Of a stretch of DNA of 64,000 nucleotides, positions 5,486-62,937 are shown in pieces. Position 1 is the stretch's first letter. Every line of letters begins with the position of its first letter. Made by a program: the position numbers and the translations under genes. The notes beneath the pieces are model-generated. The model searched no databases, was not told where the DNA came from, and was given only the letters and a program-made list of their open reading frames with translations. Source of the stretch: Akkermansia muciniphila (GTDB lineage Bacteria > Verrucomicrobiota > Verrucomicrobiia > Verrucomicrobiales > Akkermansiaceae); the NCBI GenBank assembly GCA_945874895.1, contig CAMCIC010000001.1:1-64000 (forward strand), written 5' to 3'.

Positions 5486-5722
5486 GATCGGAAGAAAGGG
5501 AGAGAGGGATTGCTGGTTGCGTGACCTCATACAACCACCTATCGTCGTCAGCGTCAAGGTTGTAGATCTCCTAGGTGCGTGCTGCCTCATTGCATCGAAC
5601 TCCATGGATCTATAACGAGTTAGATGAATTTCTCCTGCAGGACATCATTTCCCTCGCTTGATCGCCGTGGAAGGTGGGTGATTGAGCGCAAGGAATTTTG
5701 GGAAATCAATGAATCTGATCGA

Positions 5723-6556
5723 TCAACGAGAAAGATACACTTTTTCCGCCGTGCCTCCCATGATGGCGGCTTGCTCATCGGTGCTGAGCGAAGCGATCCA
5801 TTGACGCACCAGTTCCACCCATCGCGTGTGGGAGGTGCGCATGAGACACACCGGCCAATCGGATCCAAACATCAGACGCCGCGGACCGAAGGCCTCCAGC
5901 ACGGTATCGAAGTAAGGACGCAGGGTTGGCTCGTCCCAATCTCCATCGCACACCTCGGTGGCCATGCCAGAGATTTTGCAAGTCACGTGCTCGCGTTTCG
6001 CCAGTTCACGGATGTTTTGCGCCCAGGCTTGATCGAATGCCCCTTTGCGGATGCTGGGCTTGGCGACATGGTCCAACACCATGCGGATGCCAGGGTGCTG
6101 GTCCACGAAGCGAATCGTCTGCGGCAAATGCTTGCCGAAAATCAGGATGTCATAACACAACGGATACTTGCCCAACTCGCGGACACCGGCATTGAAATCT
6201 GGGCGAAGAATGAAATCGTCATCGGGCTCGTCCTGAATCACATGACGGAAGCCGACGACTTTTTCCTCAGCAGCATACTGTTCCAAGTAACGCCCCACCC
6301 CGGCATCGCAGAGGGGAACCCAGCCCACCACACCCAGAACGCGCGGATGAGCAGCAGCCAGCTCTAACAAAAAATCCGTTTCCTCCACGATCTGCCGCGC
6401 TTGCACCGCGATGCTGCCATCGAGCCCAGAGGCATCCAGCAATGGCTCCAGATCCTCCGGTAGGAGGTCGCGTCGGCACATCGCCAATTCCTCGCTCATC
6501 CATGGATATTCCTCCGCGTTGTATCTCCAAAAATGCTGATGGCTGTCGATTCTCAT
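5723..6556 (-). CDS. Amidohydrolase family protein (amidohydrolase 2, L-fuconolactonase-like)
   Basis: A 277-residue cytoplasmic TIM-barrel metal hydrolase. It begins MRIDSHQHFW, the HxH metal-binding pair of the first strand. The middle has the pattern RHVIQDEP, and the last strands carry LDHVAKPSIRKG and LMFGSDWPVC, the closing Asp of the active site. These match the amidohydrolase 2 (COG3618) group, which hydrolyses sugar lactones such as L-fucono-1,5-lactone. No fucose or rhamnose genes lie next to it, so the substrate is not fixed by context. It stands alone on the minus strand, with 119 bases to the divergent dihydrouridine synthase gene. Confidence 0.86.
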   Translation of the reverse strand: MRIDSHQHFWRYNAEEYPWMSEELAMCRRDLLPEDLEPLLDASGLDGSIAVQARQIVEETDFLLELAAAHPRVLGVVGWVPLCDAGVGRYLEQYAAEEKVVGFRHVIQDEPDDDFILRPDFNAGVRELGKYPLCYDILIFGKHLPQTIRFVDQHPGIRMVLDHVAKPSIRKGAFDQAWAQNIRELAKREHVTCKISGMATEVCDGDWDEPTLRPYFDTVLEAFGPRRLMFGSDWPVCLMRTSHTRWVELVRQWIASLSTDEQAAIMGGTAEKVYLSR

Positions 6557-6675
6557 AAGTGCGCTGACTCATGGCATCGGACTTGGGCGCAGAAGTCAAC
6601 CCACAACCATCTTCAGCGCCGCGTGAAACATCGATGACGTCTTGCCACCGAGTGGCAGCGTGATAGACTGCGTGC

Positions 6676-7710
6676 GTGCTGCCTTGGTTCACGTCCGGAA
6701 ATTTCCCCCTCTATCTCGCGCCGATGGCGGGAGTCACGGATGTGGTGTTCCGGCAACTTTGCAAAGAGCTCGGCGCCGATGTGATGGTGACAGAATTCAT
6801 CTCTGCGGAAGGAATCATGCAACGCGATGAATATACGCGGAAATACACGGAATTCACCGACGAACAGCGCCCAGTAGGCATACAGCTTTTCGGCGCGGAC
6901 GGTGCGCGCATGGGCGAGGCGGCAAGGAAAATTCTCGATTGGAAACAACCAGACTTCATCGACATCAACTTCGGTTGCCCCGTCAACAAGGTCGTTTCCA
7001 AAAATGGCGGATCCTCCTTATTGAAGGATTGTCCGATTCTGGCCTCGGTGGCCTCCGGAGTGGTCCAAGCCATGGTCGGAACCGGAGTGCCAGTTACCGC
7101 CAAAATTCGCATCGGATGGGACCAACAGAACATCAATGCGGTAGAGGTCTGTCATATATTGGAAGACTGCGGCATTCAAGCCATCGCCGTGCATGGGCGC
7201 ACGCGTGCTCAGGGATACTCCGGTTTTGCCGACTGGGAAGTGATTGATGCCTGCGCGCGTTCTGTGAAAATTCCCGTCATTGGCAATGGCGATCTCCAAC
7301 GTGCAGACGACGTGATCAAGCGCCGCAACGAGTGCGCGATTTCAGGCGTGATGATAGGTCGTGCCGCCATGCAACACCCATGGATCTTTCGCGAGACCAA
7401 GGCGCAGTTGCGGGGTGATGGTGAAATCCCAGAAGTCACTCCCGAGGAGCGCTGGGCGCTCATCGTGCGGCATTGCCGCTTGGCAGTGCAGAGCCAGCGC
7501 TACGGCCATGAACGCCACGCGATGATGGCGATGCGCGGTCGACTCCTGGCGTATTGCAAGGGATTCGCCGGAGCCAAGGAATTGCGCCAGCTTTTGGCCA
7601 AAGTGGAAAGCGTCGGCCACGTCGAGGACATCGCCGCCATGGGACTGGCCCGCGAGCTCGCCGGCGAAGAGGAGCCCACCGCCTCGGAGCCGATTACCTA
7701 CCTTTCATAA
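6676..7710 (+). CDS. dusB: tRNA-dihydrouridine synthase (Dus family, DusB-like)
   Basis: A 344-residue flavoenzyme that reduces uridine in the tRNA D-loop. It shows the FMN-barrel start LAPMAGVTDVVFRQLCKELG (residues 14-33), the active-site segment DINFGCPVNKVV with catalytic Cys101, and later VHGRTRAQGYSG and VIGNGDLQ, which bind FMN phosphate. The GTG at 6676 gives the expected short leader before the barrel. The C-terminal helical tRNA-binding domain is present, so the gene is full length. Its TAA stop shares a base with the ATG of the following protease gene, so the two may be translationally coupled. DusB is the best guess among the subfamilies. Confidence 0.93.
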   Translation: MLPWFTSGNFPLYLAPMAGVTDVVFRQLCKELGADVMVTEFISAEGIMQRDEYTRKYTEFTDEQRPVGIQLFGADGARMGEAARKILDWKQPDFIDINFGCPVNKVVSKNGGSSLLKDCPILASVASGVVQAMVGTGVPVTAKIRIGWDQQNINAVEVCHILEDCGIQAIAVHGRTRAQGYSGFADWEVIDACARSVKIPVIGNGDLQRADDVIKRRNECAISGVMIGRAAMQHPWIFRETKAQLRGDGEIPEVTPEERWALIVRHCRLAVQSQRYGHERHAMMAMRGRLLAYCKGFAGAKELRQLLAKVESVGHVEDIAAMGLARELAGEEEPTASEPITYLS

Positions 7711-8453
7711 TGCGTCTTTTTTTATTCCTCATCTTTTTTTTACCTCTTGCCAATTGCGTGATGGCTCCCTTGCCGCGTGTGGACCGTCGCCCACCCAGCC
7801 CGGAATCGCTCCGCTATGCCCAGCAACGAGTCAGCGCCATTCTCCTCACCCGACGGAGCGACATTACCGGCTGGATGCGCAAAGGTTTCCCCAAATCCCA
7901 GACACCGCCTGACACCGATGGTGGTACAGCTTGCCCGATCGCACCCGATGGCTACTTTCTGACTGCCGATCACATTCTCAAAAATCATTCGACTTCCACG
8001 ATTCATCTTCTTTATGGACGAGGAAAAAATTTGCAAACGCAGAAGGGGCGCATTGTCTGGCGCGATGCTAGGCATGATCTCGCGATCGTGCACGCCCCGA
8101 TGGCAACTCCCGCCCATTATCATTTCTCCGATCCTGCCCTAACGGTTCCCGAGGGCACCACGGTCTTTCATGGAGGTCTCACCACGGGACTGAAGCCTGT
8201 GTTTGGCGCACTGCAAACGTCAGTTCGAGCGGAATCTCTATTTTCCTCTCCCCAACATTTCTGCATCGATATCCCATTGCAGCCCGGCGACAGCGGCGGA
8301 CCGGTTCTCGATGCAAGGGCGCAATTGATCGGTATCAATTCGGCGGTGGAATTTCTCATTCCCCTAGAAACACCGATTTTCACCGAATCCTCCGGTGTCC
8401 GACCGAATGTGCGCAAGGTGATGAAAATCATCGAGCGGGATCGCCGTAGATGA
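7710..8453 (+). CDS. Trypsin-like serine protease, predicted lipoprotein
   Basis: A 247-residue S1-fold protease. The N-terminus MRLFLFLIFFLPLANC is a lipoprotein signal with Cys16 as the lipidation site, so the enzyme should be membrane-anchored and face the periplasm. The catalytic triad is complete: His88 in TADHIL, Asp123 in RHDLAIV, Ser195 in QPGDSGGPV. There is no PDZ domain, unlike DegP/HtrA, so it is probably a simple housekeeping or processing protease. The ATG at 7710 overlaps the stop of the upstream dus gene. The next lipoprotein gene begins 7 bases after its stop. The substrate is unknown. Confidence 0.88.
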   Translation: MRLFLFLIFFLPLANCVMAPLPRVDRRPPSPESLRYAQQRVSAILLTRRSDITGWMRKGFPKSQTPPDTDGGTACPIAPDGYFLTADHILKNHSTSTIHLLYGRGKNLQTQKGRIVWRDARHDLAIVHAPMATPAHYHFSDPALTVPEGTTVFHGGLTTGLKPVFGALQTSVRAESLFSSPQHFCIDIPLQPGDSGGPVLDARAQLIGINSAVEFLIPLETPIFTESSGVRPNVRKVMKIIERDRRR

Positions 8454-8460
8454 TCCGACC

Positions 8461-8877
8461 ATGCTCCGTTTCCCGTTTTGCCTTCTGCTCAGCGCCTTGC
8501 TTTTTTCATGCGCCCCCTATCGGGCCGCATGGAATTCTGGTTGGACAGAAAAAGCGGCCAACAATAGCATCATGCTAGTGCACGCCCATCCGCCAACGCT
8601 GGGTTGGAAACGTCTGCAATATCAGTCCACCCTGCATCCGGAATTTCACGAGTTCCTCGTTCACCTCGGCACGCCCGATTGCATCGCGGAAACCACTCAT
8701 ACCGAGCGGCACTACCTCATCCTCTACTACCTCAAGAACCGACAGGCCTATTCCTTCCGTAATGACACTCGCTCCGTAAGCAAACCCATCGAGGTGGCAG
8801 GTCCCTACCCGATCAGCACCAAGGAGTATCGGTTGCTCAGCGATTTCAAGCATCGCGCGTTGGGAGGAAACGAGTAA
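8461..8877 (+). CDS. Small predicted lipoprotein
   Basis: A 138-residue protein with signal MLRFPFCLLLSALLFSC; Cys17 fits a lipobox (LFSC). The mature part is short and mixed in character, with ERHYLILYYLKNRQAYSFRN in the centre. Its gene lies 7 bases downstream of the membrane-anchored protease, so the two probably share an operon and a compartment. I do not recognise the family. A role as accessory or substrate of the protease is only a suggestion from position. Confidence 0.75.
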   Translation: MLRFPFCLLLSALLFSCAPYRAAWNSGWTEKAANNSIMLVHAHPPTLGWKRLQYQSTLHPEFHEFLVHLGTPDCIAETTHTERHYLILYYLKNRQAYSFRNDTRSVSKPIEVAGPYPISTKEYRLLSDFKHRALGGNE

Positions 8878-8958
8878 AACAGGCTGCATCGTCCCTTCTG
8901 CGGATGCCTCCCTCAACGCGCACATCCTCCTCTGGAAAAATCGATCATTCTCGATCTC

Positions 8959-11900
8959 ATGTCTTTACATTTGATGCAAGAACCGTTACCTTGCGAAGTG
9001 ATGTTGTCCGGAACCTCAAACACACAGCCGAAAAAAAACCATACAGGCTTCACTTTGATCATCACAGTGAGTCTTTTGGTTTTGTTGACGTTGATTGCGA
9101 TCGGCTTATTGAGCCTCTCGACCGTGACGTTGCGCATCGGCAGCAAGGAGCAGCATCTCTCGACGGCGCGAGCCAACGCGAGGATGGCGATGATGATCGC
9201 GGTGGGTGAGCTACAAAAACAACTGGGACCTGACCGCAGGATCAATGCGGTGGCAGGAATGGATGCATCCGCCGTGCCTGATCAACGCCAGTGGCTGGGA
9301 GTGTATGATGCGTGGCTGGGCAGTGAAACCACCCGCCCAGATCCCAGCACACGTTTCCGCCGTTACCTCGTCTCAGGCAATGAAACCACATTGAGAAACC
9401 GGGACTCCGCAAAATCGCCTTTGCCAGGTAAAACCATCGACATCGTAGGTCGGGATCCGAGTTCCTCACAACGGCGGGTGAAAGCTGGGCTGACCGCACT
9501 CTCTGATGCAACAGGCAACCTCGCCTGGTGGGTGGGCGATGAAAATGCGAAAGCCAAGATCAACGCCGGCAGCGACTACCCGACAGCGGTGACTAATGAA
9601 TTACTCGCCATGGAGGCTGGACAATCGGCCCCTGGCGTGGGTTTCCGGTTGCAAAGCGAATTGCAAAACATTTCCAACCAAGGCAGGGGCAGTTGGGACC
9701 TGAGCAATGCATTGCGTAGCAAATGCGTGTCTCTCCACTCTACCGAATTGATTTCCGGAGTCTCCGGTGACTTGAACCAGTATCAGCATGATCTCACAAC
9801 CAACAGCTATGGCTTGCTCACAGATGTGAGAAATGGAGGACTCAAACGAGATCTCACCCTCTACCTAGAGCAGCCGTATTCGAGCCGCCTGCGGCAACCG
9901 CTTTACACGGTCGGCAATAACGCCATCATCAATTACAATGCCGATTCAAACAACGCCTCTGCATTGGATGAATCTTCCGGTATCACCATGGAGGAATTGT
10001 GGATTTACTACAACCTTTACAAGCAAGTCAATTACAGCCGTCCCGCCAGCACCAGTGACAGCATCGGCCGCCGTCCTGCTGGATTTCCCACTCTGCTCTC
10101 TGGCAACAGTCGCGACGAGGTCATGGCCGATCGTTTTTACCCTTACAAACGCCGAGTCTATTCTCAGGTAAAATACATGCTTTCGCTGGCGGCGGCACCC
10201 GGCACGCAACCCGACCGCTTTGACCTGCGCCTCGCGATCGACCCCGTCGTGGTACTGTGGAACCCTTACAACGTCGCGCTCGAGTATCAACCAGGAGGGT
10301 TCGAGACGGTGGGCTTTTCTGGACTTCCCTACATCGCGGATTTCCAAACGCCCAGCGGCACAACCTCGGTTTCCTTCGCACAGTTCTTCCGGAATGACAA
10401 CGTGAACCTGATTCCAGCCAACATCGGACGAGATCAGCCCATCGTGCTCCAACCAGGAGAGAGTCGTGTCTTTTCACGTGTCAATGGCCAAGGCGACTCT
10501 CTGTCCAGTGGTTGGCGCTACACCGATGGCATCTCGATCAACCACGCGAGCTTCCCCAAAAATCTCCCGGCCAATGCCAACGTCAAGCTCACCCTGCGTC
10601 CGGATGCAGGTGGCTTCATCAATTATCTTACCTTTTGGTTCGGACTGCGCACTGATAGCCCTACCCTTCAATCCGGCACCTACGTTCTGCGTGGAGACAG
10701 ACAGAGCTCGACGCTGCCTACCGTGACAACACCGCAGACCATCACCGTCAGCAATATCGTCAGCGATCGCAAAATCCCCCATCTTCTCATCAGCCAGAAC
10801 ATGCGAACGGAGAATGACACCTCCACTCCATCCAAAACCTGGTTGTGGAGCAATCCCTCCGTGATCTACCGGCAGGCCGCCGATAGCACCCTCACGTCCC
10901 GTCTGGCGCACCAGATGGAAATTTTTGTGACTCAGGTGAGTTCGTGGGAAAATCCCTACGTGCAGATCACACCAGGGAATCAAGCCTACTGGGGCGGTGG
11001 CACGCGAGCTGATTTCGGCGTGCCATTTTTCACATTGCGTGGGGTTCCGTTGACCCCGATGAAGTCACTGGCTGCCTTTCAACATTCCTGTGCAAACGGC
11101 ATGAGAAGACAGTGGAAGGACAGCAACGTGAGCATACCCGCAAGCAGCTTTCCTGCCAGCGCAGAAGGTCTGGATGGCCACCGCTATCTTCAGCCCATGG
11201 GATCGAAATGGATCGGCAACTCCTTTGCCCATCCGCTCATCCCTGCCGGCACTACGGTGGGCCAAGCAGCTCTACCCGATAACCAAGCAACACCTCCGGT
11301 AGCGGGCCCTGTGAAATTGGCCGATCACTCCTACCTCGCCAATGCAGCACTGTGGGACACTTGGTATTTTTCTTCGATGGCCCCACAAACGGCTCATCCG
11401 TATCGTGGGAGCCCACGCACACAGCAGCGGGTGTTCGACGATTTTTTCCCCACTTCCCCTGCCACCGCGCATGTGCCACTTCCCACAACGCGCTTCACTC
11501 CCTACCGCGCTGGGAACGAAACTGTTTTGCGCGCGATGCTGCGCAACGGCACTCCCGATTCCCTAGCCTACCAACGACTCGCATCCTTTTTGATGATCGA
11601 TGGTGCTTTCAATGTGAACTCCACATCGGTCGCCGCTTGGAAAATGATGCTTGGCAGTCTGCGGGAACATGCCACCAACCGCAGCAACGCAGCATCCGGC
11701 ATGACGGTCGTCCCTTCATCCACCGCTAGCACTCCAGTGAATGGTCTCGGAATCGCCAATGGCAATCTCGTCACTCCGTCCGCCAATGTCGCAGAGCCCA
11801 ACCAATGGACCGGATTCCGCCATCTGAGCGATGCCGAGATCGATCGACTCGCCAACAACATGGTGACACAGGTAAAATTGCGCGGCCCCTTTCTCAATCT

Positions 11901-12366
11901 ATCGGATTTCATCAACCGCAGACCTGGCACACAACAGGAACTGGCCCGACAGGGAGCGGTTCAGGCAGCCATCGAAGCCGCCGATCTGAACGGTGCGCTC
12001 GACAAGGGGACGCGACAACTGGGTTCGCTCGCCGGTGCGACATTTCCTGATGCAGGTCGCGGATCAAAGGCCGCGGGCATTCCGGGCTTCATCACCCAAG
12101 CTGACCTGCTTACCGCCATCGGTCCTGTGCTGCAAGCCCGCTCTGACACATTTACCATCCGCGCCTACGGCAACGCGACTGATCCGAACGGCACCATTCT
12201 CGCAGAAGCGTGGTGCGAGGTCCTTGTCCAACGCCTGCCTGAATACCTCAGTCCGGCGGATGCAGCCAACCTGCGTGAAACCAACCTCACCACCCCGATC
12301 AATCGTGTTTTTGGAAGAAAACTCGCCATCGTCCAATTCCGCTGGCTTTCGAAAACCGAAGTCTGA
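8959..12366 (+). CDS. Verru_Chthon cassette protein A-like prepilin-type giant protein
   Basis: A 1135-residue protein with a prepilin-like N-terminus, HTGFTLIITVSLLVLLTLIA, followed by ARMAMMIAVGELQKQLGPDR. Together with the C-terminal VFGRKLAIVQFRWLS, these are hallmarks of the Verru_Chthon cassette A family, known from Verrucomicrobia and Chthoniobacter. It should be inserted by its N-terminal helix with a very large exported domain rich in Asn, Ser and Thr. The family is thought to act with pseudopilin-like B, C and D proteins in an undefined surface or secretion apparatus. None of those partners is adjacent here. The start is uncertain: ATG at 8959 or at 9001 would both leave the motif near the N-terminus. 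Confidence 0.85.
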   Translation: MSLHLMQEPLPCEVMLSGTSNTQPKKNHTGFTLIITVSLLVLLTLIAIGLLSLSTVTLRIGSKEQHLSTARANARMAMMIAVGELQKQLGPDRRINAVAGMDASAVPDQRQWLGVYDAWLGSETTRPDPSTRFRRYLVSGNETTLRNRDSAKSPLPGKTIDIVGRDPSSSQRRVKAGLTALSDATGNLAWWVGDENAKAKINAGSDYPTAVTNELLAMEAGQSAPGVGFRLQSELQNISNQGRGSWDLSNALRSKCVSLHSTELISGVSGDLNQYQHDLTTNSYGLLTDVRNGGLKRDLTLYLEQPYSSRLRQPLYTVGNNAIINYNADSNNASALDESSGITMEELWIYYNLYKQVNYSRPASTSDSIGRRPAGFPTLLSGNSRDEVMADRFYPYKRRVYSQVKYMLSLAAAPGTQPDRFDLRLAIDPVVVLWNPYNVALEYQPGGFETVGFSGLPYIADFQTPSGTTSVSFAQFFRNDNVNLIPANIGRDQPIVLQPGESRVFSRVNGQGDSLSSGWRYTDGISINHASFPKNLPANANVKLTLRPDAGGFINYLTFWFGLRTDSPTLQSGTYVLRGDRQSSTLPTVTTPQTITVSNIVSDRKIPHLLISQNMRTENDTSTPSKTWLWSNPSVIYRQAADSTLTSRLAHQMEIFVTQVSSWENPYVQITPGNQAYWGGGTRADFGVPFFTLRGVPLTPMKSLAAFQHSCANGMRRQWKDSNVSIPASSFPASAEGLDGHRYLQPMGSKWIGNSFAHPLIPAGTTVGQAALPDNQATPPVAGPVKLADHSYLANAALWDTWYFSSMAPQTAHPYRGSPRTQQRVFDDFFPTSPATAHVPLPTTRFTPYRAGNETVLRAMLRNGTPDSLAYQRLASFLMIDGAFNVNSTSVAAWKMMLGSLREHATNRSNAASGMTVVPSSTASTPVNGLGIANGNLVTPSANVAEPNQWTGFRHLSDAEIDRLANNMVTQVKLRGPFLNLSDFINRRPGTQQELARQGAVQAAIEAADLNGALDKGTRQLGSLAGATFPDAGRGSKAAGIPGFITQADLLTAIGPVLQARSDTFTIRAYGNATDPNGTILAEAWCEVLVQRLPEYLSPADAANLRETNLTTPINRVFGRKLAIVQFRWLSKTEV

Positions 12367-12392
12367 TCATTCATTTTTTACGTTGATTGTTT

Positions 12393-13118
12393 ATGTTTCC
12401 CATGCGCCAAAAGCTCCATCTCGTCATAGCTGGTTTTGTCAGCCTCATCGTATCGATCGTCTTTGCGTCCGCGCAGGAGACCACCGAACCAAACAAAGAG
12501 TCGGCGGTGATGATGCGCATCATATGCAACCAACCGGTGGAAGGAGCCACAGCATTGAAAATCGCGCAGGGCAGCAACATCCTTCAAGATCTTACCATCA
12601 TCCCCTCACTCGTCACCGATCCGGTCGCGGTCAAACGCGGCGAGCTGTCGCTGGCAAAATGGACAGGTAGCGACAAGACCCTAGTATTGAACCCTGTTGT
12701 CAAAATCACCATTCCAGACGCTGGAACACGCTTCGTTCTTGCTTTGTTCCCATCGCCTGACCCTGAAGCAGCAGCACCCTACCGGCATTTGCTCATCCGC
12801 ACGGATGGGCTGAATTTCAAAGCCTCCGATCTTTACCTTCACAACCTCACTTCCGTTCCAGTGGCAGGACTCCTGGGCAAAACGAAATTCCAGATCGCAC
12901 CTGCTAAGTCAACGGTAGTGACTCCCACACCGGAGCCGGCGGGGGAGCGCATGTATCAGGCACAGTTTTATTTCCAACGTGAGGGTGAGGCGTTCATTTT
13001 CAACGATACTCGCTGGCCGCTGGCCTCCTCGGCCCGCGTCTATCTCTTTTTCATCCCCGATCCCGTGAGACAATCCATGGGCTATGTTTCCTTTCGCGAG
13101 TATAGCCCTTTTCCCTGA
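12393..13118 (+). CDS. Secreted protein of unknown function, follows the Verru_Chthon A gene
   Basis: A 241-residue protein with an Sec signal peptide, LHLVIAGFVSLIVSIVFASA, cut near AQE. The mature part looks all-beta, with a Pro/Thr-rich linker TVVTPTPEPAGE near residue 180 and a C-terminal segment ARVYLFFIPDP. The gene starts 26 bases after the Verru_Chthon A stop on the same strand, and the heme O synthase gene converges 14 bases beyond its own stop. It is therefore probably the second and last gene of a two-gene operon. ATG at 12393 was chosen over a TTG at 12387; ATG at 12402 is also possible. Family not recognised. Confidence 0.78.
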   Translation: MFPMRQKLHLVIAGFVSLIVSIVFASAQETTEPNKESAVMMRIICNQPVEGATALKIAQGSNILQDLTIIPSLVTDPVAVKRGELSLAKWTGSDKTLVLNPVVKITIPDAGTRFVLALFPSPDPEAAAPYRHLLIRTDGLNFKASDLYLHNLTSVPVAGLLGKTKFQIAPAKSTVVTPTPEPAGERMYQAQFYFQREGEAFIFNDTRWPLASSARVYLFFIPDPVRQSMGYVSFREYSPFP

Positions 13119-13132
13119 TACGGATTTTGCAT

Positions 13133-14014
13133 TTACCAGCAAAGCGCCAATAAGGTGAGGGCGATGGGAAGATACAACAGTGTGTAGAGAAACAATCGTC
13201 GCGCACTGGCACGGTCACCATGTTTGCCAAAGCGCAGGGACAACCCCATCATTCGCGCGCCCAGAAGCAATCCACCCACGAGACAGGGCCATGTGACGCG
13301 CCCGCTGAGATAAGGCCAAAAGAATAGCAAAGCGAGCACCGCGGAAAACATCAGGCAAAGCCGCGCACTTCTGCTACCGGAGACATCGCCATTCGACCAC
13401 ATGCGATATCCCGCGGTTTCGTATTCCTCACGACACATCCAGTTGATCGCGATGAAGTGCGGCAACTGCCAGAAAAATAATAGAGCAAACAGGAACCATG
13501 CGGATGAATCAAGATCACCCCCTGCCGCAGTCCATCCCATCATGGGCGGAATTGCCCCCGGGATCGCACCAATCAGTGTGTTCACCGAATGTTTCCGCTT
13601 CATGGGTGTGTATAGAAAAACGTATGTTACCAGCGTGATCAAAGCCAGCACTGCCGTCATTTTGTTGACCATAACCGACAAATGCACCAAGCCGAAGGCA
13701 CTGAGCAGGACACCAATCACAAAAGCGACAAGCACGTCCATGCGTTTGGCAGGGAGCGGGCGATCTGCTGTGCGCGCCATGCGGGCATCGAGATCGATTT
13801 CCATCAACTGATTGAACACCGCCGACCCGAAAGCTGCCGCCGCCGTGCCAAGAATGGTGTGCACAAGCCTCATGCCCTGCCAATCCGTGGCGCGCGATGC
13901 GAGAAAATAACCAAAGCAGGTGGTCACCAAGACAAAAGTATTCAACCTAACCTTCGTCAACACAGCGAGGTCTTGGCGAAACATCGCGGCTTTCGGTGAT
14001 GGTTCATCATTCAT
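13133..14014 (-). CDS. ctaB: Protoheme IX farnesyltransferase (heme O synthase)
   Basis: A 293-residue UbiA-family prenyltransferase that attaches a farnesyl group to heme B, making heme O for terminal oxidases. The early strand KVRLNTFVLVTTCFGYFLA leads into NQLMEIDLDARMARTADRPL (about residues 70-90), the Asp-rich heme O synthase motif that binds Mg-prenyl diphosphate. A second Asp/Glu-rich loop lies after the fourth helix, around the segment ending NWMCREEYETAGYRMWSNGD. About nine hydrophobic helices follow the family plan. ATG at 14014 was preferred over a GTG at 14026. No cytochrome oxidase genes flank it in this window. It is divergent from the cyclophilin gene across a 133-base gap. 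Confidence 0.93.
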   Translation of the reverse strand: MNDEPSPKAAMFRQDLAVLTKVRLNTFVLVTTCFGYFLASRATDWQGMRLVHTILGTAAAAFGSAVFNQLMEIDLDARMARTADRPLPAKRMDVLVAFVIGVLLSAFGLVHLSVMVNKMTAVLALITLVTYVFLYTPMKRKHSVNTLIGAIPGAIPPMMGWTAAGGDLDSSAWFLFALLFFWQLPHFIAINWMCREEYETAGYRMWSNGDVSGSRSARLCLMFSAVLALLFFWPYLSGRVTWPCLVGGLLLGARMMGLSLRFGKHGDRASARRLFLYTLLYLPIALTLLALCW

Positions 14015-14147
14015 GCGCGCCGCCACTTTGCACAGATCAGCCTAAATCACAAATGCCAATTTCAGCCCACAACAGGCAGCGTGTTGCCCATTGATTCAGC
14101 GAAGTTTCTGATTGTCAGTTGTTGAGCGATGTGCCACATTCCCTACC

Positions 14148-15459: not shown

Positions 15460-16554
15460 ATGACCACTGGACTCGCAGGCTCCCTGCATGATCTGAGTTT
15501 TGCAGAAATGCAACAACGTCTTGCCGCGGATGGGTTGAACCAAGTTCACGCCCGTTCTCTGTGGCGCGCGCTGCACGGCCATGCCGATCCCTTGCAACCC
15601 ATGCCCGCGAGTTTTCTTGGTCCGCTGCAACGATGGCTGGAAAAACATCTCTACGCCAATGATGCGGATTTTTTTGTGGATGTGCCGGAAACGGTTTCCG
15701 AGACCCACAGCAGCGATGGAATGACGCGCAAGTATCTGCTGCGACTGCGCGATGGAAGAACCGTGGAAACCGTTCTCATGGGCTACGATGGCCGATTCAC
15801 TGCCTGTGTCAGTACACAAGTCGGCTGCGCCATGGGCTGTGTGTTTTGTGCGACAGGACAAATGGGATTCACCCGCCACCTGCGGCCCGGCGAAATCATC
15901 GCCCAGGTGCTACACGTACAACGTGTATTGCGCAGCGATCATCAAACACGCCTGCGCAATCTGGTCTTAATGGGTATGGGCGAACCATTGCACAATTACG
16001 ATGCCGTGATGAAGGCCCTCGCCACCATCGCCGATGTGCGTGGACCCAGCCTATCAAAAAACCGCATCACCATCAGCACCGTGGGCCTGGTGCCCGCCAT
16101 TCGTCGCATGGCCGATGAAGGCTGTCCCTACAACCTCGCCCTCAGTTTGCATGGGGCCGATGATGCGCAACGTCAAGCGCTGATCCCGGTAGGCAAAAAA
16201 TGGGACATGGCAGAATTGATCGAGGCATGCCGGCACTACGACCGCACCATCGGCAAGAGAATTTTCATTGAGTGGACGATGATCGCCGGCCAGAACGACA
16301 GCCCAGAAATCGCCCGTCAATTGGCGGAACTGCTGCGCGGCATCAATGTGCACATCAATCTGATTCCGCTGAATCCCACGGCGGGGTTTGCAGGCAGTGC
16401 CACCGCCCACAAAGCAGGCTTAGTCTTTCAGCGCATTCTCCGCGACGCCGGTTATCCTGTGACGTTCCGCCAGCGGCGTGGCATCGATGTCGCCGCGGGC
16501 TGCGGGCAACTCAAAAGTGACCATTCGGCACGCACATCTGCCGCGTCATCATGA
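15460..16554 (+). CDS. rlmN: RlmN-family radical SAM methyltransferase, copy 1 (divergent)
   Basis: A 364-residue enzyme of the family that methylates C2 of A2503 in 23S rRNA and A37 in some tRNAs. The 4Fe-4S cluster motif CAMGCVFC gives Cys123, Cys127 and Cys130. The mechanism needs a methyl-carrying Cys and a resolving Cys: Cys348 in AGCGQL and Cys116 in TACVSTQ fit. The SAM-binding LMGMGEPL is intact. Compared with the second copy in this window (50768-51913), the C-terminal motif reads GIDVAAGCGQL rather than GHDIEAACGQL, and the N-terminal region is quite different. It could be a true RlmN or a paralogue with a changed target. It converges on the NadR-like gene, with 38 bases between. 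Confidence 0.9.
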   Translation: MTTGLAGSLHDLSFAEMQQRLAADGLNQVHARSLWRALHGHADPLQPMPASFLGPLQRWLEKHLYANDADFFVDVPETVSETHSSDGMTRKYLLRLRDGRTVETVLMGYDGRFTACVSTQVGCAMGCVFCATGQMGFTRHLRPGEIIAQVLHVQRVLRSDHQTRLRNLVLMGMGEPLHNYDAVMKALATIADVRGPSLSKNRITISTVGLVPAIRRMADEGCPYNLALSLHGADDAQRQALIPVGKKWDMAELIEACRHYDRTIGKRIFIEWTMIAGQNDSPEIARQLAELLRGINVHINLIPLNPTAGFAGSATAHKAGLVFQRILRDAGYPVTFRQRRGIDVAAGCGQLKSDHSARTSAASS

Positions 16555-16592
16555 ATGCCGCAATCCCATCCGATATCCAACAGGAAACCGAA

Positions 16593-17111
16593 TCAAGGCT
16601 GTCCTAACAAAGTCATCACCGCCTCTTCAGCTCGACTGATGCGCTCCCTACCACTGCCAGAAATGATGCGATACTCTCGGCCCGTGGCGCGAACGGCCGC
16701 GAGATGTTTTTCAAACAACTCTTCCCTTCCCTCAGGAGCTTCCCTCAAAGGATCGTATTCCCAGGGCAAATCCGGTTGGCAGATCAGATAGACGTGGTCT
16801 TTCTCCGCTGCGGCCGCCTCGCGCAACCAAGGCTCGCAACGCGCAAACGCCACCTCACACCAGATGAGGAAATTTTGCAGGTCCGTATCGAAGAACGCCA
16901 TGGATACCGTGGCAGGCACTTGTTGCACCTGATGAAGCAAATGACCGCGGGCGATGTCGTGCACGGTATCGCAATCATAATGCGGCCCGTGTTTTTCCAG
17001 ATAGAGACGAGCGTGTTCGAAGGCACAAGGGAAGTGGAATCGCTCCGCAAGCGCGCGTGTGAGCGTGGTCTTACCACTGGACTCGGGACCGGTGAGCACA
17101 ATTCGCTTCAT
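16593..17111 (-). CDS. NadR-like P-loop kinase, proposed thiamine or vitamin-precursor kinase
   Basis: A 172-residue ATPase resembling the ribosylnicotinamide kinase domain of NadR (AAA_28). The Walker A motif GPESSGKT is at residues 8-15. It is followed by FEHARLYLEKHGPHY, the family's Glu-Ala/His-Arg-x-Tyr segment, then FFDTDLQNFLIWCEV and LICQPDLPWEYDPLR. The transcription-regulator and adenylyltransferase domains of full NadR are absent. Its ATG overlaps the stop of the PnuC-family gene by 4 bases, and both sit in an operon under a TPP riboswitch. I therefore infer that it phosphorylates thiamine (or a thiamine-related compound) to trap it after uptake, rather than nicotinamide riboside. 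The family call is firm; the substrate is inferred from context only. Confidence 0.85.
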   Translation of the reverse strand: MKRIVLTGPESSGKTTLTRALAERFHFPCAFEHARLYLEKHGPHYDCDTVHDIARGHLLHQVQQVPATVSMAFFDTDLQNFLIWCEVAFARCEPWLREAAAAEKDHVYLICQPDLPWEYDPLREAPEGREELFEKHLAAVRATGREYRIISGSGRERISRAEEAVMTLLGQP

Positions 17112-17722
17112 GGCATGAGTTCCTTTCTTGTCCTGTGCCACGACCACCACCCATACAATCCGAGGATCAGGAAAAAACCATACTGTGCTGCATAGATCAC
17201 TGATCCCTGAACCAGGTAAATATGAATTCCCAATCCATTCACCATCGCCCAACCAATCCAGTTTTCCATACGCTTTCGCGCCTGCAAAAATTGCGCGAAG
17301 TAACTCAGCACCGTGGCTGTGGCATCACGCCACAAAACTGCTGGTGGGGCAATCCAAGTAAGATGATGAGAAAAAAACTTTACACCGATTCCCCACAAAA
17401 TCACTGCCAGAATCACCCCCAGCAACAAGATCATTTGACTCCGACGCGCCAACCACGTCGGGCGGAAGCTTTCCTGTGTAACACCGTGTTTGAGCCAAAC
17501 GCTCCAGCAATAGATCTGCAGCGGAACATAGGACACATAGAGAATGCCATCCGATATCAAATGCCAACGGGTAAAAGCGAGCCAAGCCGAGACCATTGCC
17601 CATAGAATTCCCAGCGGCCAACCAAGGGTATTCTGCCTCGCAATCAATGACACACTCACCACCGCCAATGCGGTGCCGAGATACTCGGGTCCCTGACCTG
17701 TTAGAAATTCTTGGAACTCCAT
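17108..17722 (-). CDS. pnuT: PnuC-family vitamin transporter, probably thiamine (PnuT)
   Basis: A 204-residue inner-membrane protein with about seven hydrophobic segments, the PnuC (SWEET-like) facilitator fold. Family marks are IARQNTLGWPLGILWAMVSA (residues 27-46), SDGILYVSYVPLQIYCW and the C-terminal ILGLYGWWSW. PnuC proteins carry nicotinamide riboside, whereas PnuT relatives carry thiamine; sequence alone does not tell me which. The TPP riboswitch and TonB-receptor gene upstream on the same transcript favour thiamine. It starts 15 bases after the receptor stop and overlaps the kinase start by 4 bases. Facilitated diffusion plus phosphorylation by the downstream kinase would make uptake irreversible. 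Confidence 0.88.
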   Translation of the reverse strand: MEFQEFLTGQGPEYLGTALAVVSVSLIARQNTLGWPLGILWAMVSAWLAFTRWHLISDGILYVSYVPLQIYCWSVWLKHGVTQESFRPTWLARRSQMILLLGVILAVILWGIGVKFFSHHLTWIAPPAVLWRDATATVLSYFAQFLQARKRMENWIGWAMVNGLGIHIYLVQGSVIYAAQYGFFLILGLYGWWSWHRTRKELMP

Positions 17723-17737
17723 GATCGTAATGATCCA

Positions 17738-19873
17738 TTAGAAATCACGCCTTACCGTGATACCGATCTGGCGTGGTTGCGCGAGCGAGTCGTAACGGGT
17801 AGGTGTGTAATCGGTAGCCGGATCATTGCCAAAGAAAAACACGCGCTGGGAGTAATCTTCATCTAACAAATTTCGCACCCACAAACTCACCGTCCAGTCA
17901 TCCTTGGTGTAGCCTATGCTCGCATTCATTTGGAAGAATCCATCGCGCTTTTCGTCATGATCAGTGGACTCGTAAAACTCACTGCGGCCCGTCAAATCCA
18001 GCGTGCTAAAAAAACCACACTCATGTTGGTATCTACCGCCGATCGAGAACGTTTGTGCCGGAGTCGCCGCCAGTTTCCGACCACCACCCGTGCCTCCTTT
18101 GGACAAGGTATAGGCATCGATCGAAGATTCCATCAGACCAATGCTATTGTAGAGTGAAAGTTGGGTATTCACCTGAAGTGCCGACTCGATCTCCACACCG
18201 GTGATGGAGGAATCGCCACCATTTTCTTGGGCAAAACTGAAGTTCCCCCCCTGCCCATCGGAGTATCGCACTTGGGTATTGTGACGCTGCATGTAGAATC
18301 CCGTGAGCGAGGAGGTGAGACGACCATCCCACCAATAGCCGCGGAGACCCAGCTCGTAATTCCAGAGGTCTTCCGTGCCGAAGTTCAACGGATCTTTGGC
18401 AGGATTGATCTCGCGGGCATCCACATTGAGACCGCCAGCTCTGTAACCTCGCGCCAGAGAAGCAAACCCCATCAGATCATCCATCACATCGTGCTCATAG
18501 GTACATTTCCCACCAAAGATGGTGTCAGAAAAATCAGGGGAAAATGCATCGCCATTGCTTGGATTCAAGCTGTCCGCTGAGGAATCGATGTGCTCCAAAC
18601 GCAGGCCCAAAATCAATCTGTCACGCTTTGAAACATCATGACCCGCTTGACCAAACAAGGCGTAATTGGCGGATGTAAAATCCGTATCCAATCGCGGCAC
18701 ACGATGATCTTCCCCCCTGATATACTGGCTTTTTTCCTGAATCACCCCGGCATAGGCTCCAAGCGTCCAGCGATCGATGAAACCGAATGCGCGCTCGGCA
18801 TCGGGAGTCGAATCGAGGCGCATCTCCTGGGCGAAATTTCCCCGCTCACGGGTCAACTCGCTGACTCCTTGATAAGACGCCGAAGTCCAGTCTTCATCGT
18901 AACTGTAGAATGAATCGGTGAATGTGCCCGAGGTGATGGATGTCAATTTCACGCCCTGCCAGCCATCGTAGGTCACCCGCACACTACCGCCGATCGATCG
19001 CTGGAAATCGCGGCCAGGTTCATCGCTGTAGGTATTGCGACCGTTGTTATCGAGCGCGAATTCATCGTAACCATTGTCCAGATACGCATGGAAAAACGTG
19101 GCATCCACCCGCAGATCGCGGTTCGGATTCCAGGTCAGGCGAAAGCGTGACGTCCACTCATCGAGCGCGTTGGTATCCTCGTTGAGAAACACATTTTTGC
19201 GGAAGCCATCGCTCTGGTTCCGATAGAGCGAAAATCGGAACATCAGCTCCTCAGGATTGCGTTGCAGCACTGGACCACCGAAGGCCAGTCCCGCTGCAAA
19301 AAGATCATCCTGCCCCGCCGTCACCTCGCTACGTCCCGTCCAATACGGCGTGGGACTGGCGGAAATCATGCGCACCATCCCCCCAGCGGCATTGACGCCA
19401 AAGGAACCTGCCTGTGGTCCGCGCAGGACCTCCACTTGCTCCATGTCAAAGGCACTGGCCACGGAAGCGATGCCGGTGAAGTCGATGTCATCCACCAGAA
19501 AGCGCACGGAGAAATCCGGTGTCTCGCCCTCGAACTGAGAGTTCTCCCCCATGCCTCGCAACTGGAAATACCTCGGGCGCGACGTGCCGCCGCTGTAGGT
19601 GAGATTGGGAGTGCGTTCGATCAAATCCGCGAAGTGGCGGATGTTCGGATTCTTCAATCCCTCCGCATCATAGACGGACACACTCGCGGGAATGTCGCTG
19701 AGCAGGGATTGCCACAGATCTGAGGTGACAACGATCTCCTTGAGCTCCTTGCCCTGCGGCGAGGGCTCTTCCTTTTTGGGCTCGATCTCCTGGGCGAAGC
19801 CGCAGGCCAGTGGCAAAAATCCGAGGCTGCCGAACGAAAACTTCCGGAATGTGTGTGATGTGCTGTGATTCAT
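17738..19873 (-). CDS. TonB-dependent outer-membrane receptor, probably for thiamine
   Basis: A 711-residue receptor. The signal peptide ends near ACGFAQ, then comes KELKEIVVTSDLWQ, a TonB-box-like stretch. The plug domain follows (LLSDIPASVSVYDAEGL to about residue 190, including QVEVLRGPQAGSFGVNAAGG, the plug signature). The rest is a 22-strand barrel with a C-terminal ending GITVRRDF, an aromatic-terminated last strand. The ATG at 19873 was chosen because it gives the signal peptide directly; a longer frame to 19963 would cover leader RNA. A TPP riboswitch lies 114 bases upstream, so expression should fall when thiamine pyrophosphate is plentiful. I infer uptake of thiamine or its derivatives across the outer membrane. 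Confidence 0.92.
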   Translation of the reverse strand: MNHSTSHTFRKFSFGSLGFLPLACGFAQEIEPKKEEPSPQGKELKEIVVTSDLWQSLLSDIPASVSVYDAEGLKNPNIRHFADLIERTPNLTYSGGTSRPRYFQLRGMGENSQFEGETPDFSVRFLVDDIDFTGIASVASAFDMEQVEVLRGPQAGSFGVNAAGGMVRMISASPTPYWTGRSEVTAGQDDLFAAGLAFGGPVLQRNPEELMFRFSLYRNQSDGFRKNVFLNEDTNALDEWTSRFRLTWNPNRDLRVDATFFHAYLDNGYDEFALDNNGRNTYSDEPGRDFQRSIGGSVRVTYDGWQGVKLTSITSGTFTDSFYSYDEDWTSASYQGVSELTRERGNFAQEMRLDSTPDAERAFGFIDRWTLGAYAGVIQEKSQYIRGEDHRVPRLDTDFTSANYALFGQAGHDVSKRDRLILGLRLEHIDSSADSLNPSNGDAFSPDFSDTIFGGKCTYEHDVMDDLMGFASLARGYRAGGLNVDAREINPAKDPLNFGTEDLWNYELGLRGYWWDGRLTSSLTGFYMQRHNTQVRYSDGQGGNFSFAQENGGDSSITGVEIESALQVNTQLSLYNSIGLMESSIDAYTLSKGGTGGGRKLAATPAQTFSIGGRYQHECGFFSTLDLTGRSEFYESTDHDEKRDGFFQMNASIGYTKDDWTVSLWVRNLLDEDYSQRVFFFGNDPATDYTPTRYDSLAQPRQIGITVRRDF

Positions 19874-19986
19874 GGTGGTGTGATTCGTTTGATGTCCACA
19901 CCCCACAGCAGCCGAAGAAAGATCACCACTGTCATCCTGTGAAGGCCTTTTGCCAGCCATCACACAACCACCACGGATCTCTCACT

Positions 19987-20087
19987 CTCGACTTCCTACG
20001 GCGGTGCGAACCGCATCAGGTTCCAAGGGTCCTTCAAACGAAGTCTCAGCCGTGCTTTCGCGAAAAAAACACCGCACCCCTGTCAAG
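19987..20087 (-). promoter_or_regulatory. TPP (THI-box) riboswitch
   Basis: Read on the minus strand, this 101-base segment carries the conserved parts of the thiamine pyrophosphate aptamer in order: ACAGGGGTGCGG near the 5' end, GGCTGAGAC, GACCCTTGGAACCTGAT, then CACCGCCGTAGGAAG at the 3' end. The outer stem P1 forms between CTTGAC (20082-20087) and GTCGAG (19987-19992), six pairs with one G-U. The gap to the receptor start is 114 bases. I did not find a strong terminator or a clear sequestered ribosome-binding site there, so how it switches is open. It makes the downstream receptor, transporter and kinase a TPP-repressed unit. Confidence 0.94.
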
Positions 20088-20242
20088 ATTGCAGGGAATA
20101 CCTACGAACGCAGCACCCCGCTGGCAAGGAAAAAAACGGAAGAATACTCAACATGATCAAATACACCTATGCAACTAAGCAGCCTAATTAACAAAGAGGC
20201 TGTCCAAATCTCAGGGGGCACTACACATCGAGCAGCGTTTCC
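20088..20242. other. Non-coding gap upstream of the TPP riboswitch
   Basis: With the riboswitch and the receptor leader, this forms a 369-base stretch without a gene (19874-20242). This part should hold the promoter of the riboswitch transcript, but I see no convincing -35/-10 pair. A 6-base inverted repeat, CAGCCT at 20180-20185 and AGGCTG at 20197-20202, lies downstream of the DUF3472 gene. It has an 11-base loop and no following T-run, so it is at best a weak terminator. Confidence 0.4.
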
Positions 20243-21544
20243 TCAAGGCAGTTTCGCGAAATCGATCACCGGCTTTTTCTCCGGTGTGGGCTTGCGTTCG
20301 AACCACTGGTTGGCTTTCACGTTGTCGCTGAAAAATCCGCCGTTGCGCATGAAGAAGCCGCCTTCGGTGACACACCCGGCGAAGTCGAGCCGATGCCCGC
20401 CGCCGCCCGTGCCATCGGTGGTGAAACGCGCGCGTGTCAGCTCGTGCCACTGGTCCTCGGTGTCGCAGACCCATTGGTTGCCGTGCAGCGAGCGGCGTTC
20501 GCGGAAGCCATCGCGATCATAAAAGTTTTCCAAAAACGAATGGAAGCCCGTGAGGTGCTTGTTCGTCTTGGGTCGTGAAAAACGAGCGATGAGTTCCCAG
20601 TCATCCTTGCCCACCTCGCCGAACCACGCGGCATAGATCGTGTTGCCCTTGCCATCGGGTTGGGCGGAGTTAAGAAAGCGATAGGTGGTGCCGGATTTCC
20701 AAGGGTAAATCTTATAGCTCTGTCCGCCTGATCCTTCGCCACCAAACTCACCGCCGCGAACGCCCTCGCCCTTGGCTAACAATTTCACGCGGTCGGACTC
20801 GGGGATGCTTTTCGGGTCATTGGTGGAAAAGGGACTCCACACGGAGAACAGGATCCAGCGCTCGTTCGCGCTTTTCACCTGAATGCCGAAGTAGCCTTCA
20901 CCGAAGCCATTGGCCATGTAGTAGGAACCCGCGGGATCTTCGCCGGGCTTCACCGTGATCTCGCTGTAGGCATAGCTGATGTTTTTGCCGCGCGGCATTT
21001 CGTAGCCCATGTGCACGGATGGTCCGCGACGCCCCCAGTAAAACATGTTGCCCTCGTTGTTTTTGACGCAATGCAATTTCACGTCGGGAGTGGCGGATTT
21101 CACGAGCAAGTCCGTGACGCGGGCGAAAGAACCGGCATCGGCACGCTGACCGGACAAATCGACACGAACGTAGCCGGGCTTGGCCACATCGATCCTGCCG
21201 ATATCGATCTCCTGCGAGGCCGCACCTTTGACCGGTAGTGACCAACGTTGCCCACCGACGGCGACTTTCAGCACCGACTCGCCCTGCTCCTGCTGGGCGC
21301 GGGCGGCCAATGACAATTGGCAGGCGCGATCCACATGAAAATACACCGAAACCACCGTGGCGGGATCACTCCAACGCGTTGACCCGCGCTCCAATCCATC
21401 GCGACTGCCGTGGGCGCTGCTAGTCACAAAAGCATTGCCACCGAGAGGCACATACCAAGCCGCCGAGTCCGCGGCCTGCAGCGCAGAAGCGCCGCAAAAG
21501 GCCTTAAACGAGAATTTTGCAAAAAATCGAAGTGTATGATTCAT
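20243..21544 (-). CDS. DUF3472 domain protein with DUF5077-like N-terminal domain, secreted
   Basis: A 433-residue exported protein; the signal region ends near ASALQA. Residues 25-150 form a beta domain (DUF5077-like) containing WYVPLGGNAF and VSVYFHVDRACQLSLAARA. Residues 165-345 are the DUF3472 part, with NMFYWGRRGPSVHMGYEMP, GFGEGYFGIQVKS and LFSVWSPFSTNDP. Such proteins occur widely in Bacteroidetes and Verrucomicrobia and are suspected to act on glycans or sulfated material, but no activity is established. The last 80 residues include an apparent Gly-rich loop, TDGTGGGGHRLDFAG. It stands alone on the minus strand, downstream of nothing and upstream of the riboswitch region. Confidence 0.85.
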   Translation of the reverse strand: MNHTLRFFAKFSFKAFCGASALQAADSAAWYVPLGGNAFVTSSAHGSRDGLERGSTRWSDPATVVSVYFHVDRACQLSLAARAQQEQGESVLKVAVGGQRWSLPVKGAASQEIDIGRIDVAKPGYVRVDLSGQRADAGSFARVTDLLVKSATPDVKLHCVKNNEGNMFYWGRRGPSVHMGYEMPRGKNISYAYSEITVKPGEDPAGSYYMANGFGEGYFGIQVKSANERWILFSVWSPFSTNDPKSIPESDRVKLLAKGEGVRGGEFGGEGSGGQSYKIYPWKSGTTYRFLNSAQPDGKGNTIYAAWFGEVGKDDWELIARFSRPKTNKHLTGFHSFLENFYDRDGFRERRSLHGNQWVCDTEDQWHELTRARFTTDGTGGGGHRLDFAGCVTEGGFFMRNGGFFSDNVKANQWFERKPTPEKKPVIDFAKLP

Positions 21545-60057: not shown

Positions 60058-60181
60058 AACTGCAAGGAAGATTGGGGGCGGGAGATTGGCGAATTTGCCG
60101 CAAATTGCAATGAAATATGCCCATGCAACTTGGGATCACCTCAGGACTTGCCAAATTTCTCCTGTCACTTACCCTGCAAGC

Positions 60182-60604
60182 GTGAGCGACGATATACCTA
60201 CCTGCTTTGCCCCGCGTCTCGACAAGAAACAAATCGAAGACGGATTGGAATTTGCGCCGAAGTTTGATGAAAACGGATTGCTGGCGGCTGTGGCGATCGA
60301 TGTGCACACGCGCGAGCCGCTGATGCTGGCATGGATGAATCGCGAATCCCTGCGTCTCACCTTGGAGAAAGGCGAGGCCGTATATTGGTCGCGCTCACGC
60401 CAAGAAATTTGGCATAAAGGAGCGACTTCCGGCCAAATCCAGAAAGTCCTCGAGATGCGCACTGACTGTGATCAGGACGCTATCATCCTCTATGTCGAAC
60501 AAGCCGGCGGCGGGGCCTGTCATACCGGAAGAAATTCCTGCTTCTACCGCACCATTCACCCCGGGAGTCCATCGGCATTGCGATTTTTGCAAGAAAATGA
60601 CTGA
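60182..60604 (+). CDS. hisI: Phosphoribosyl-AMP cyclohydrolase
   Basis: A 140-residue enzyme of histidine biosynthesis, without the HisE domain. The GTG at 60182 starts a protein whose family part begins near residue 15. It has VAIDVHTREPLMLAWMNRES, AVYWSRSRQEIWHKGATSGQ, and the zinc/magnesium site DCDQDAIILYVEQAGGGACH followed by TGRNSCFYR with all cysteines. An ATG at 60110 would add 24 residues lacking family similarity. No other his gene is adjacent, so the pathway is scattered. The next gene, rplS, starts 133 bases later. Confidence 0.93.
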   Translation: MSDDIPTCFAPRLDKKQIEDGLEFAPKFDENGLLAAVAIDVHTREPLMLAWMNRESLRLTLEKGEAVYWSRSRQEIWHKGATSGQIQKVLEMRTDCDQDAIILYVEQAGGGACHTGRNSCFYRTIHPGSPSALRFLQEND

Positions 60605-60639
60605 TTTTTCAAAAAAATCGCCTGAAATGAAATTCACAG

Positions 60640-60668
60640 TTGCCATCGCGCAAAAAAACCTCTAGCTT
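60640..60668 (+). promoter_or_regulatory. Candidate promoter of rplS
   Basis: TTGCCA at 60640-60645 and TAGCTT at 60663-60668 have a 17-base spacing. The -35 matches five of six consensus bases; the -10 matches only three. The leader to the L19 start (60738) would be about 63 bases and is GC-rich (GCGCGCCCCGCGCGACG). Weak evidence. Confidence 0.27.
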
Positions 60669-60737
60669 GCGCGCCCCGCGCGACGCTCCTTGTGAGCCGC
60701 GAAGGTCTCTAACCATCACATTCTCCTACTCAAGACC

Positions 60738-61085
60738 ATGAACATCATTGCCAAAATCGAAAGCGAACAACTGAAATCGGATATCGCCGAATTCAATGTG
60801 GGAGACTCCGTGAAAGTCCACTGCCGTGTGGTGGAAGGCGGTAAAGAGCGCGTTCAGATTTTTGCGGGCTTGGTCATCGGTCGCAAAGGTCATGGCGTCA
60901 ATTCCTCCTTTACGGTGCGCAAAATTTCATACGGCGAAGGTGTCGAGCGCGTTTTCCCCGTTCACACTCCCCGTATTGCAAAAATTGAAGTAACCAGCCG
61001 CGGCAAGGTGCGTCGCGCTAAGCTGAACTACCTTCGTTCCCGCGTCGGCAAGCGCGCTACCTTGGTAAAGAGCCTCGATGCGTAA
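60738..61085 (+). CDS. rplS: 50S ribosomal protein L19
   Basis: A 115-residue ribosomal protein at the 30S/50S interface. The sequence has [40 protein letters not shown] and [20 protein letters not shown], then a basic tail [16 protein letters not shown]. All parts are as in the family. It is monocistronic: an intrinsic terminator follows 23 bases after the stop. The usual partners trmD, rimM and rpsP are not seen upstream, so the standard operon is broken here. Confidence 0.97.
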
Positions 61086-61108
61086 TCAGCTCGCGTTACT
61101 TGCGCTTG

Positions 61109-61142
61109 AAAAAAAGACTCGACTGCGGTCGGGTCTTTTTTT
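61109..61142 (+). terminator. Rho-independent terminator of rplS
   Basis: An 8-base stem, GACTCGAC (61116-61123) with GTCGGGTC (61128-61135), has a TGCG loop and one G-T pair. It is flanked by seven A and seven T residues that extend the stem, and ends in a T-run. This is a classic intrinsic terminator. Confidence 0.92.
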
Positions 61143-61196
61143 GTGCCTTGATGCATCGTGCTTGCGCGGCGCAGGCAATCGACTACGATCCACCCC

Positions 61197-62138: not shown

Positions 62139-62175
62139 TTTCCCCCAAGAAATTCGTTCCACCGACGTTATATTG

Positions 62176-62916: not shown

Positions 62917-62937
62917 ATCTCAAAAACCACAAAAACC

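Follow-up and report, generated by a model that had tools for sequence, protein, structure and literature searches.

Which compound is brought into the cell by an operon that opens with a thiamine pyrophosphate (TPP) riboswitch and ends in a carrier and a kinase resembling those for nicotinamide riboside (NR)? The locus that raises this question lies in the first 64,000 nucleotides of contig CAMCIC010000001.1 of Akkermansia muciniphila (assembly GCA_945874895.1), the stretch that we analyzed as a whole and refer to as the window. There, open reading frames (ORFs) and profile matches on the minus strand give the order TPP riboswitch, TonB-dependent receptor, PnuC-family carrier and NadR-like kinase. 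From comparisons of sequences, we consider it likely that the operon serves thiamine salvage under TPP control in a probable auxotroph, which would take up thiamine and have its kinase form thiamine monophosphate (TMP) for conversion by ThiL. The features are as follows.

19976..20091, minus strand: TPP riboswitch aptamer (RF00059; cmscan 64.1 bits, E 2.8e-10, model positions 1-105 of 105)
19874..19975, minus strand: leader, from the aptamer to the receptor start codon (consensus fold of five genus leaders and single-sequence folds)
17738..19873, minus strand: TonB-dependent receptor, predicted outer-membrane thiamine receptor (PF00593 112.5 bits, PF07715 56.3 bits)
17108..17722, minus strand: PnuC-family inner-membrane carrier, predicted to be thiamine-type (PF04973 110.7 bits; profile alignment to the PnuC structure 4qtn; tree)
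16593..17111, minus strand: NadR-like P-loop kinase, candidate thiamine kinase forming TMP (PF13521 99.3 bits; AlphaFold model; co-occurrence)

The gene order, the gap of 15 bases between receptor and carrier (17723-17737) and the overlap of 4 bases between carrier and kinase (17108-17111), all given in the initial annotation, are borne out by the ORF coordinates, with the receptor taken to start with the ATG at 19873 (a GTG at 19963 in the ORF tool). Four relatives within the genus have contigs that extend to the kinase (G003, G006, G008, G009), and all four share this order; in two others (G001, G004) the contig stops at or within the carrier gene. The TPP aptamer, which had been proposed from the letters, matches the covariance model RF00059 over its full length and above the gathering score of 54.3 bits, and is the sole Rfam match above gathering score in the window. 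A search of the whole window genome (2.92 Mb, 26 contigs, 97% complete) found no other TPP riboswitch. Among 57 genomes from the same genus, family and order, the window genome included, 50 have a TPP riboswitch, 46 of them above the cut-off and always one per genome; searches of more than 40 genomes were run with stricter filters, which lose weak matches. A promoter scan of 16300-20400 gave no sigma-70-like site.

In the proposed pathway, low TPP would presumably let the riboswitch permit expression of the mRNA. The receptor, whose domains are Plug and TonB barrel (Pfam) and whose substrate we infer from the riboswitch and the gene context, would pass thiamine across the outer membrane, the carrier would take it across the inner membrane, and the kinase would convert it to TMP and so trap it in the cell. 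Chromosomal ThiL would then turn TMP into TPP, closing the loop on the riboswitch. Of the complete pathway that had been ascribed to the operon, the uptake and trapping parts fit, but completion to TPP needs ThiL, which is encoded outside it.

The evidence that carries this reading comes from the genus (ten genomes, 82-98% complete), which is split between synthesis and uptake. thiC is present in three genomes (G002, G005, G007), where the riboswitch lies 546, 510 and 534 bases upstream of it, respectively, and the same three have thiE above the cut-off. PF04973 (PnuC) is present in the other seven and absent from these three, with zero overlap, and in each of the seven the riboswitch is followed by receptor and carrier. 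These seven salvage genomes, the window genome among them, yielded no thiC and no intact thiE (G006 has a 35-bit thiE fragment); as they are 82-97% complete, a gap may explain a single absence, but not the same absence in all seven. In five of the seven (G000, G003, G006, G008, G009), the kinase scores 310-344 bits; the remaining two are those whose contigs stop at or within pnuC. It was not found in the three thiC genomes.

Thiamine pyrophosphokinase (TPK, PF04263) was found in none of the 57 genomes, window genome included, by a search that gave matches in 7 of 14 control genomes. ThiL matched in all 57, 48 of them above the cut-off, and in all ten of the genus, nine above the cut-off; in G008, which falls below it, the match is split into pieces of 105 and 79 bits within one 312-aa frame. 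All seven genus members lacking thiC and intact thiE have ThiL (six above the cut-off), and in the window genome it is an intact protein of 301 aa. By the established thiamine pathways, precursors cannot be joined to TMP without ThiE, so thiamine itself must be imported, and since ThiL is kept and TPK was not found, something must make TMP from thiamine. This makes the operon kinase a candidate for that step. The window organism is a probable thiamine auxotroph; in contrast, five Akkermansia strains are judged able to make all vitamins but B12 in the available part of an earlier study (PMC6593275). Three observations support the assignment of the operon to thiamine acquisition in the initial annotation: the riboswitch itself, the lack of thiC and of intact thiE in just those members of the genus where the operon occurs, and further loci at which a TPP riboswitch accompanies the kinase family.

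Several of our results weigh against a thiamine function, and those from the carrier and the kinase are also the grounds for the foremost alternative, in which the two form an NR uptake pair (PnuC and ribosylnicotinamide kinase) that came under a TPP riboswitch by chance. The carrier falls into the PnuC superfamily by Pfam (cut-off 27.3 bits) and its profile aligns to the PnuC structure 4qtn in the PDB (E 1.1e-12, positions 15-200 of 204); phmmer with the sequence alone found no match in the PDB. It also passes the NCBIfam equivalog cut-off for NR PnuC (54.8 vs 42.45 bits), so that automatic annotation would name it an NR transporter. In the carrier tree, it belongs to a long-branched clade of 21 rows (SH-aLRT 100), comprising Verrucomicrobia, Amphritea, Desulfuromusa, the order member G039 and the TPP-linked locus L097, and lies within a group of 36 rows that also contains E. 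coli PnuC (SH-aLRT 85). All eight TPK-linked rows are in a separate clade of 32 rows (SH-aLRT 91). Neither of the two results named initially as refuting the thiamine reading was obtained, since the TPP model matches and firm clustering of the carrier with NR PnuC was not seen. The carrier forms its own clade, outside the TPK-linked PnuT of Bacteroidetes as well, and thiamine transport is therefore argued from context and not from PnuT membership.

The kinase, a stand-alone protein of 172 aa (AAA_28, gathering score 27 bits), has NadR as its nearest relative. Its AlphaFold model (pLDDT 93.2) finds its best fold matches in NadR structures (8x7f, TM 0.83), and its best NCBIfam matches are NadR models, below the cut-off (TIGR01526 67.8 vs 341 bits, over the last part only). 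It comprises the kinase domain only, with no nicotinamide mononucleotide (NMN) adenylyltransferase domain, which sets it apart from NadR, and a Pfam scan that gave AAA families only sets it apart from TPK. Its lid reads PDLPWEYDPLRE, compared to NNTPWVADGLR in E. coli NadR. Proteins that look like NadR do occur near PnuC in five genomes of the same order (G015, G027, G035, G037, G051), where the matches reach only 46-93 bits and lie in frames of 341-566 aa, as opposed to the 172 aa of the stand-alone form. Together with the TPP riboswitch at the head of the operon and the exact agreement, within the genus, between having the operon and lacking thiC and intact thiE, this makes the NR pair improbable in our judgement.

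Granted that thiamine is taken up, the kinase could be a thiamine pyrophosphokinase itself, forming TPP in one step. Among 148 Bacteroidales (at least 85% complete), the kinase profile matches in 70 and TPK in 32, with both in a single genome, G176, whose kinase match is a 53-bit NadR-type protein of 334 aa with a cytidylyltransferase-like domain. Above 60 bits, the 67 genomes with kinase and the 32 with TPK do not overlap (Fisher p 2.4e-10, phylogeny ignored). Either enzyme can neighbour a PnuC carrier: one is present in the fetched loci of 55 of the 67 kinases (on the same strand and at most 150 bases away for 54 of them) and in those of 20 of the 32 TPKs. That the two do not co-occur above 60 bits counts for the main reading and, together with this shared setting, also speaks for a one-step enzyme. 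The retention of ThiL speaks against it, as ThiL should then be dispensable in auxotrophs: it is kept in all seven genus members without thiC and, among 44 searchable kinase genomes (from 45 of the 73 loci described below), none of which has TPK, it matches in 44, above the cut-off in 41. The three below are G064 (the same genome as G008), G085 (an 87-bit piece at a contig start) and G072 (weak matches only). This set is neither pure nor fully independent, since it includes two Sphingomonas and a few others that look NadR-like, as well as four genus genomes already counted. We regard one-step formation of TPP as quite unlikely.

Under the thiamine-to-TMP reading, the Bacteroidales carrier tree, in which every one of the 20 TPK-linked carriers and 30 of the 55 kinase-linked ones fall into a clade of 50 rows (SH-aLRT 95), fits one substrate handled by two alternative enzymes. 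G176 has two PnuC carriers from different parts of the carrier tree, one beside the NadR-type protein and the other near TPK (L198, L220). The mutual exclusion of kinase and TPK could in part be a lineage effect, and a single origin of TPK-linked PnuT is not rejected (p-AU 0.695); we make no claim of repeated switching between TPK and kinase partners, for which the unconstrained tree needs five changes. A receptor accompanies none of the 67 Bacteroidales kinases, compared to 14 of the 32 TPKs (short flanks). In addition, the kinase is a candidate for the step from thiamine to TMP as set against TPK only, with no search made for ThiK or ThiM, and G039, a prototroph of the order in which thiC lies with the riboswitch, has a carrier-kinase pair (238 bits) elsewhere in its genome. 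TPP riboswitches do also control precursor transporters, but import of a thiamine precursor, such as hydroxymethylpyrimidine (HMP) or a thiazole, followed by its phosphorylation by the kinase, is very improbable: no intact thiE was found in any salvage genome of the genus, and precursors could not be joined.

Beyond the genus, we lean, with moderate confidence, towards an unnamed family of thiamine kinases that comprises the NadR-like (AAA_28) kinases standing alone, mostly with the lid motif DxPWxxDxxR, and that would fill the step from thiamine to TMP upstream of ThiL and replace TPK beside PnuC-type carriers; the Verrucomicrobia carrier clade would then be a second thiamine lineage of PnuC. 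Such kinases were found in Verrucomicrobiota, Bacteroidota, Thermodesulfobacteriota and Pseudomonadota. The lid motif is present in 112 of 128 loci scanned, a count that is partly the result of selection, as some loci were collected with a pattern containing PDLPW. The 16 loci without it are six of NadR type (L198, L208-L212) and ten Bacteroidales kinase loci, some of which are the same gene twice. A strict PDxPW was dropped as a mark of the family, Bacteroidales members often having IDLPW. In the kinase tree, the TPP-linked rows require at least four changes, and the grouping of all NadR rows as one clade is not rejected (p-AU 0.745); the NadR-labelled L208 groups with stand-alone-like rows, and three kinase-labelled Sphingomonas rows group with NadR.

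A pattern-based scan of a genome collection gave 73 kinase loci. A PnuC-like ORF is present in 55 of them, mostly directly upstream of the kinase (54 and a partial one in L067), and several of the others are cut by a contig end. Using model R1, we found TPP aptamers upstream in L064, L065, L066, L068, L071 and L097, in the last of these upstream of the carrier; L064, L065, L066 and L071 are the loci of G009, G006, G003 and G008, and not independent of them. In four Bacteroidetes loci, Rfam (E <= 0.01) places TPP aptamers between the kinase and a TonB receptor. L102, from a Cytophagales metagenome-assembled genome, has two in tandem (7534-7742, plus strand; 56.4 and 51.1 bits, the second below the gathering score) and no adjacent PnuC by the carrier profile; L118 (46.8 bits), L110 (45.1) and L115 (36.4) are below the gathering score, with E-values of 5e-6 to 0.002. 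In L095, model R1 gave a weak minus-strand match (E 0.01), which was dropped because Rfam at E 0.01 did not confirm it.

To the results that weigh against a thiamine function belongs the scarcity of this linkage. Among 37 kinase loci, only L102 has a TPP match at the gathering score. None was found at that score in 14 loci of Amphritea, Oceanospirillales and Desulfuromonad type, nor in 20 Bacteroidales regions (one of them the NadR locus L198), where model R1 gave one match with an E-value of 0.6. As most scanned loci lack a TPP riboswitch and no receptor was seen at the 67 Bacteroidales kinase loci, many of the kinases are without a direct link to thiamine.

At L097 (6265-6996, plus strand) and L067 (294-1028, plus strand), a small predicted outer-membrane protein is encoded between carrier and kinase, with a weak match to TorF/gcw_chp (19-21 bits, below the cut-off of 47); no TonB receptor was seen at these two loci. 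In Bacteroidetes, a distant ThiE/TenI-family ORF lies beside carrier and kinase in L115 (5751-6383, plus strand; PF02581 44 bits), and L095 has in the same setting an ORF that is ThiE/TenI-like by its similar N-terminus only (5684-6316, plus strand).

How the riboswitch might act was approached by folding. The RNAalifold consensus of five genus leaders has a helix that competes with P1, as the sequence ahead of the start codon pairs there with the 3' strand of P1 (42 pairs, 12 changed on both sides); folding showed such a competing helix in some of the leaders. The window leader also has a GGUGUG-CACACC hairpin immediately before the start codon. No terminator-like site is listed in the minus-strand leader (19874-19975). 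With the aptamer enforced, the pairing of the start region barely altered in four leaders, in calculations where the intended P3 pairs were mis-set and mostly unenforced and the start index of the window was off by one base. Leader scan and folds support neither a terminator nor a start-codon switch as the expression platform, and we claim no mechanism.

Nor do the aptamers settle whether the salvage riboswitch came from the thiC locus: those of four salvage genomes have a mean identity of 68% to the three thiC aptamers of the genus and of 67% to 13 other relatives. The thiC riboswitch of G005 (L044, compared with 6667-14041 and 59927-63999 of the window) adjoins close relatives of window genes at 6667-8874 and 13136-14041, and an earlier thiC site may for this reason have been located about 10 kb away from today's salvage operon. 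The thiC locus of the genus has the same aptamer family, one per genome, and governs synthesis, whereas the window operon would govern uptake.

Among known systems, E. coli ThiK catalyzes the reaction predicted here, from thiamine to TMP, with ThiL acting next; it is an aminoglycoside-phosphotransferase-like kinase, and differs in this from the NadR-like window kinase. With PnuC-NadR salvage of NR, the window pair has the carrier superfamily and the kinase fold in common; NadR (described in the accessible part of PMC7221760) differs from the single-domain window kinase by its additional adenylyltransferase domain and by its lid, which reads WVADGLR in E. coli. The OMthi-PnuT-Tnr3 genes of Bacteroides (BT2390, BT2396, BT2397) likewise combine TPP riboswitch, TonB receptor, PnuC-family carrier and a thiamine-phosphorylating enzyme, and BT2396 (PnuT) and BT2390 are genetically tested functional counterparts, according to the portion of PMC5613172 available. 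The last enzyme there is Tnr3 instead of a NadR-like kinase, and the window carrier belongs to a different clade of PnuC. In blastp at 1e-5, the window receptor matched no ORF of the 32 Bacteroidales TPK loci, nor any of L102, L110, L115 and L118. The same portion of PMC5613172 reports minimal change in expression of the riboswitch-linked pnuT and OMthi with thiamine, which is to be added to the adverse results above. ThiK, ThiM and ThiN are the B1 salvage enzymes listed in the available part of PMC6593275, with no NadR-like kinase among them, and PMC7074142, as far as it is accessible, only cites a thiamine kinase paper. In the open-licence literature, we found no report of a NadR-like kinase in thiamine salvage; subscription papers were mostly outside this scope, and novelty is unproven.

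If the proposed reading is correct, it would assign a function to a family of kinases that are widespread, have an NR enzyme as their closest named relative, and are so similar to it that annotation would file them there. Auxotrophy calls would change for many genomes that would otherwise appear incapable of using thiamine, or appear to be NR salvagers. Within this one genus, relatives would have either the synthesis or the uptake of thiamine under the same kind of riboswitch.

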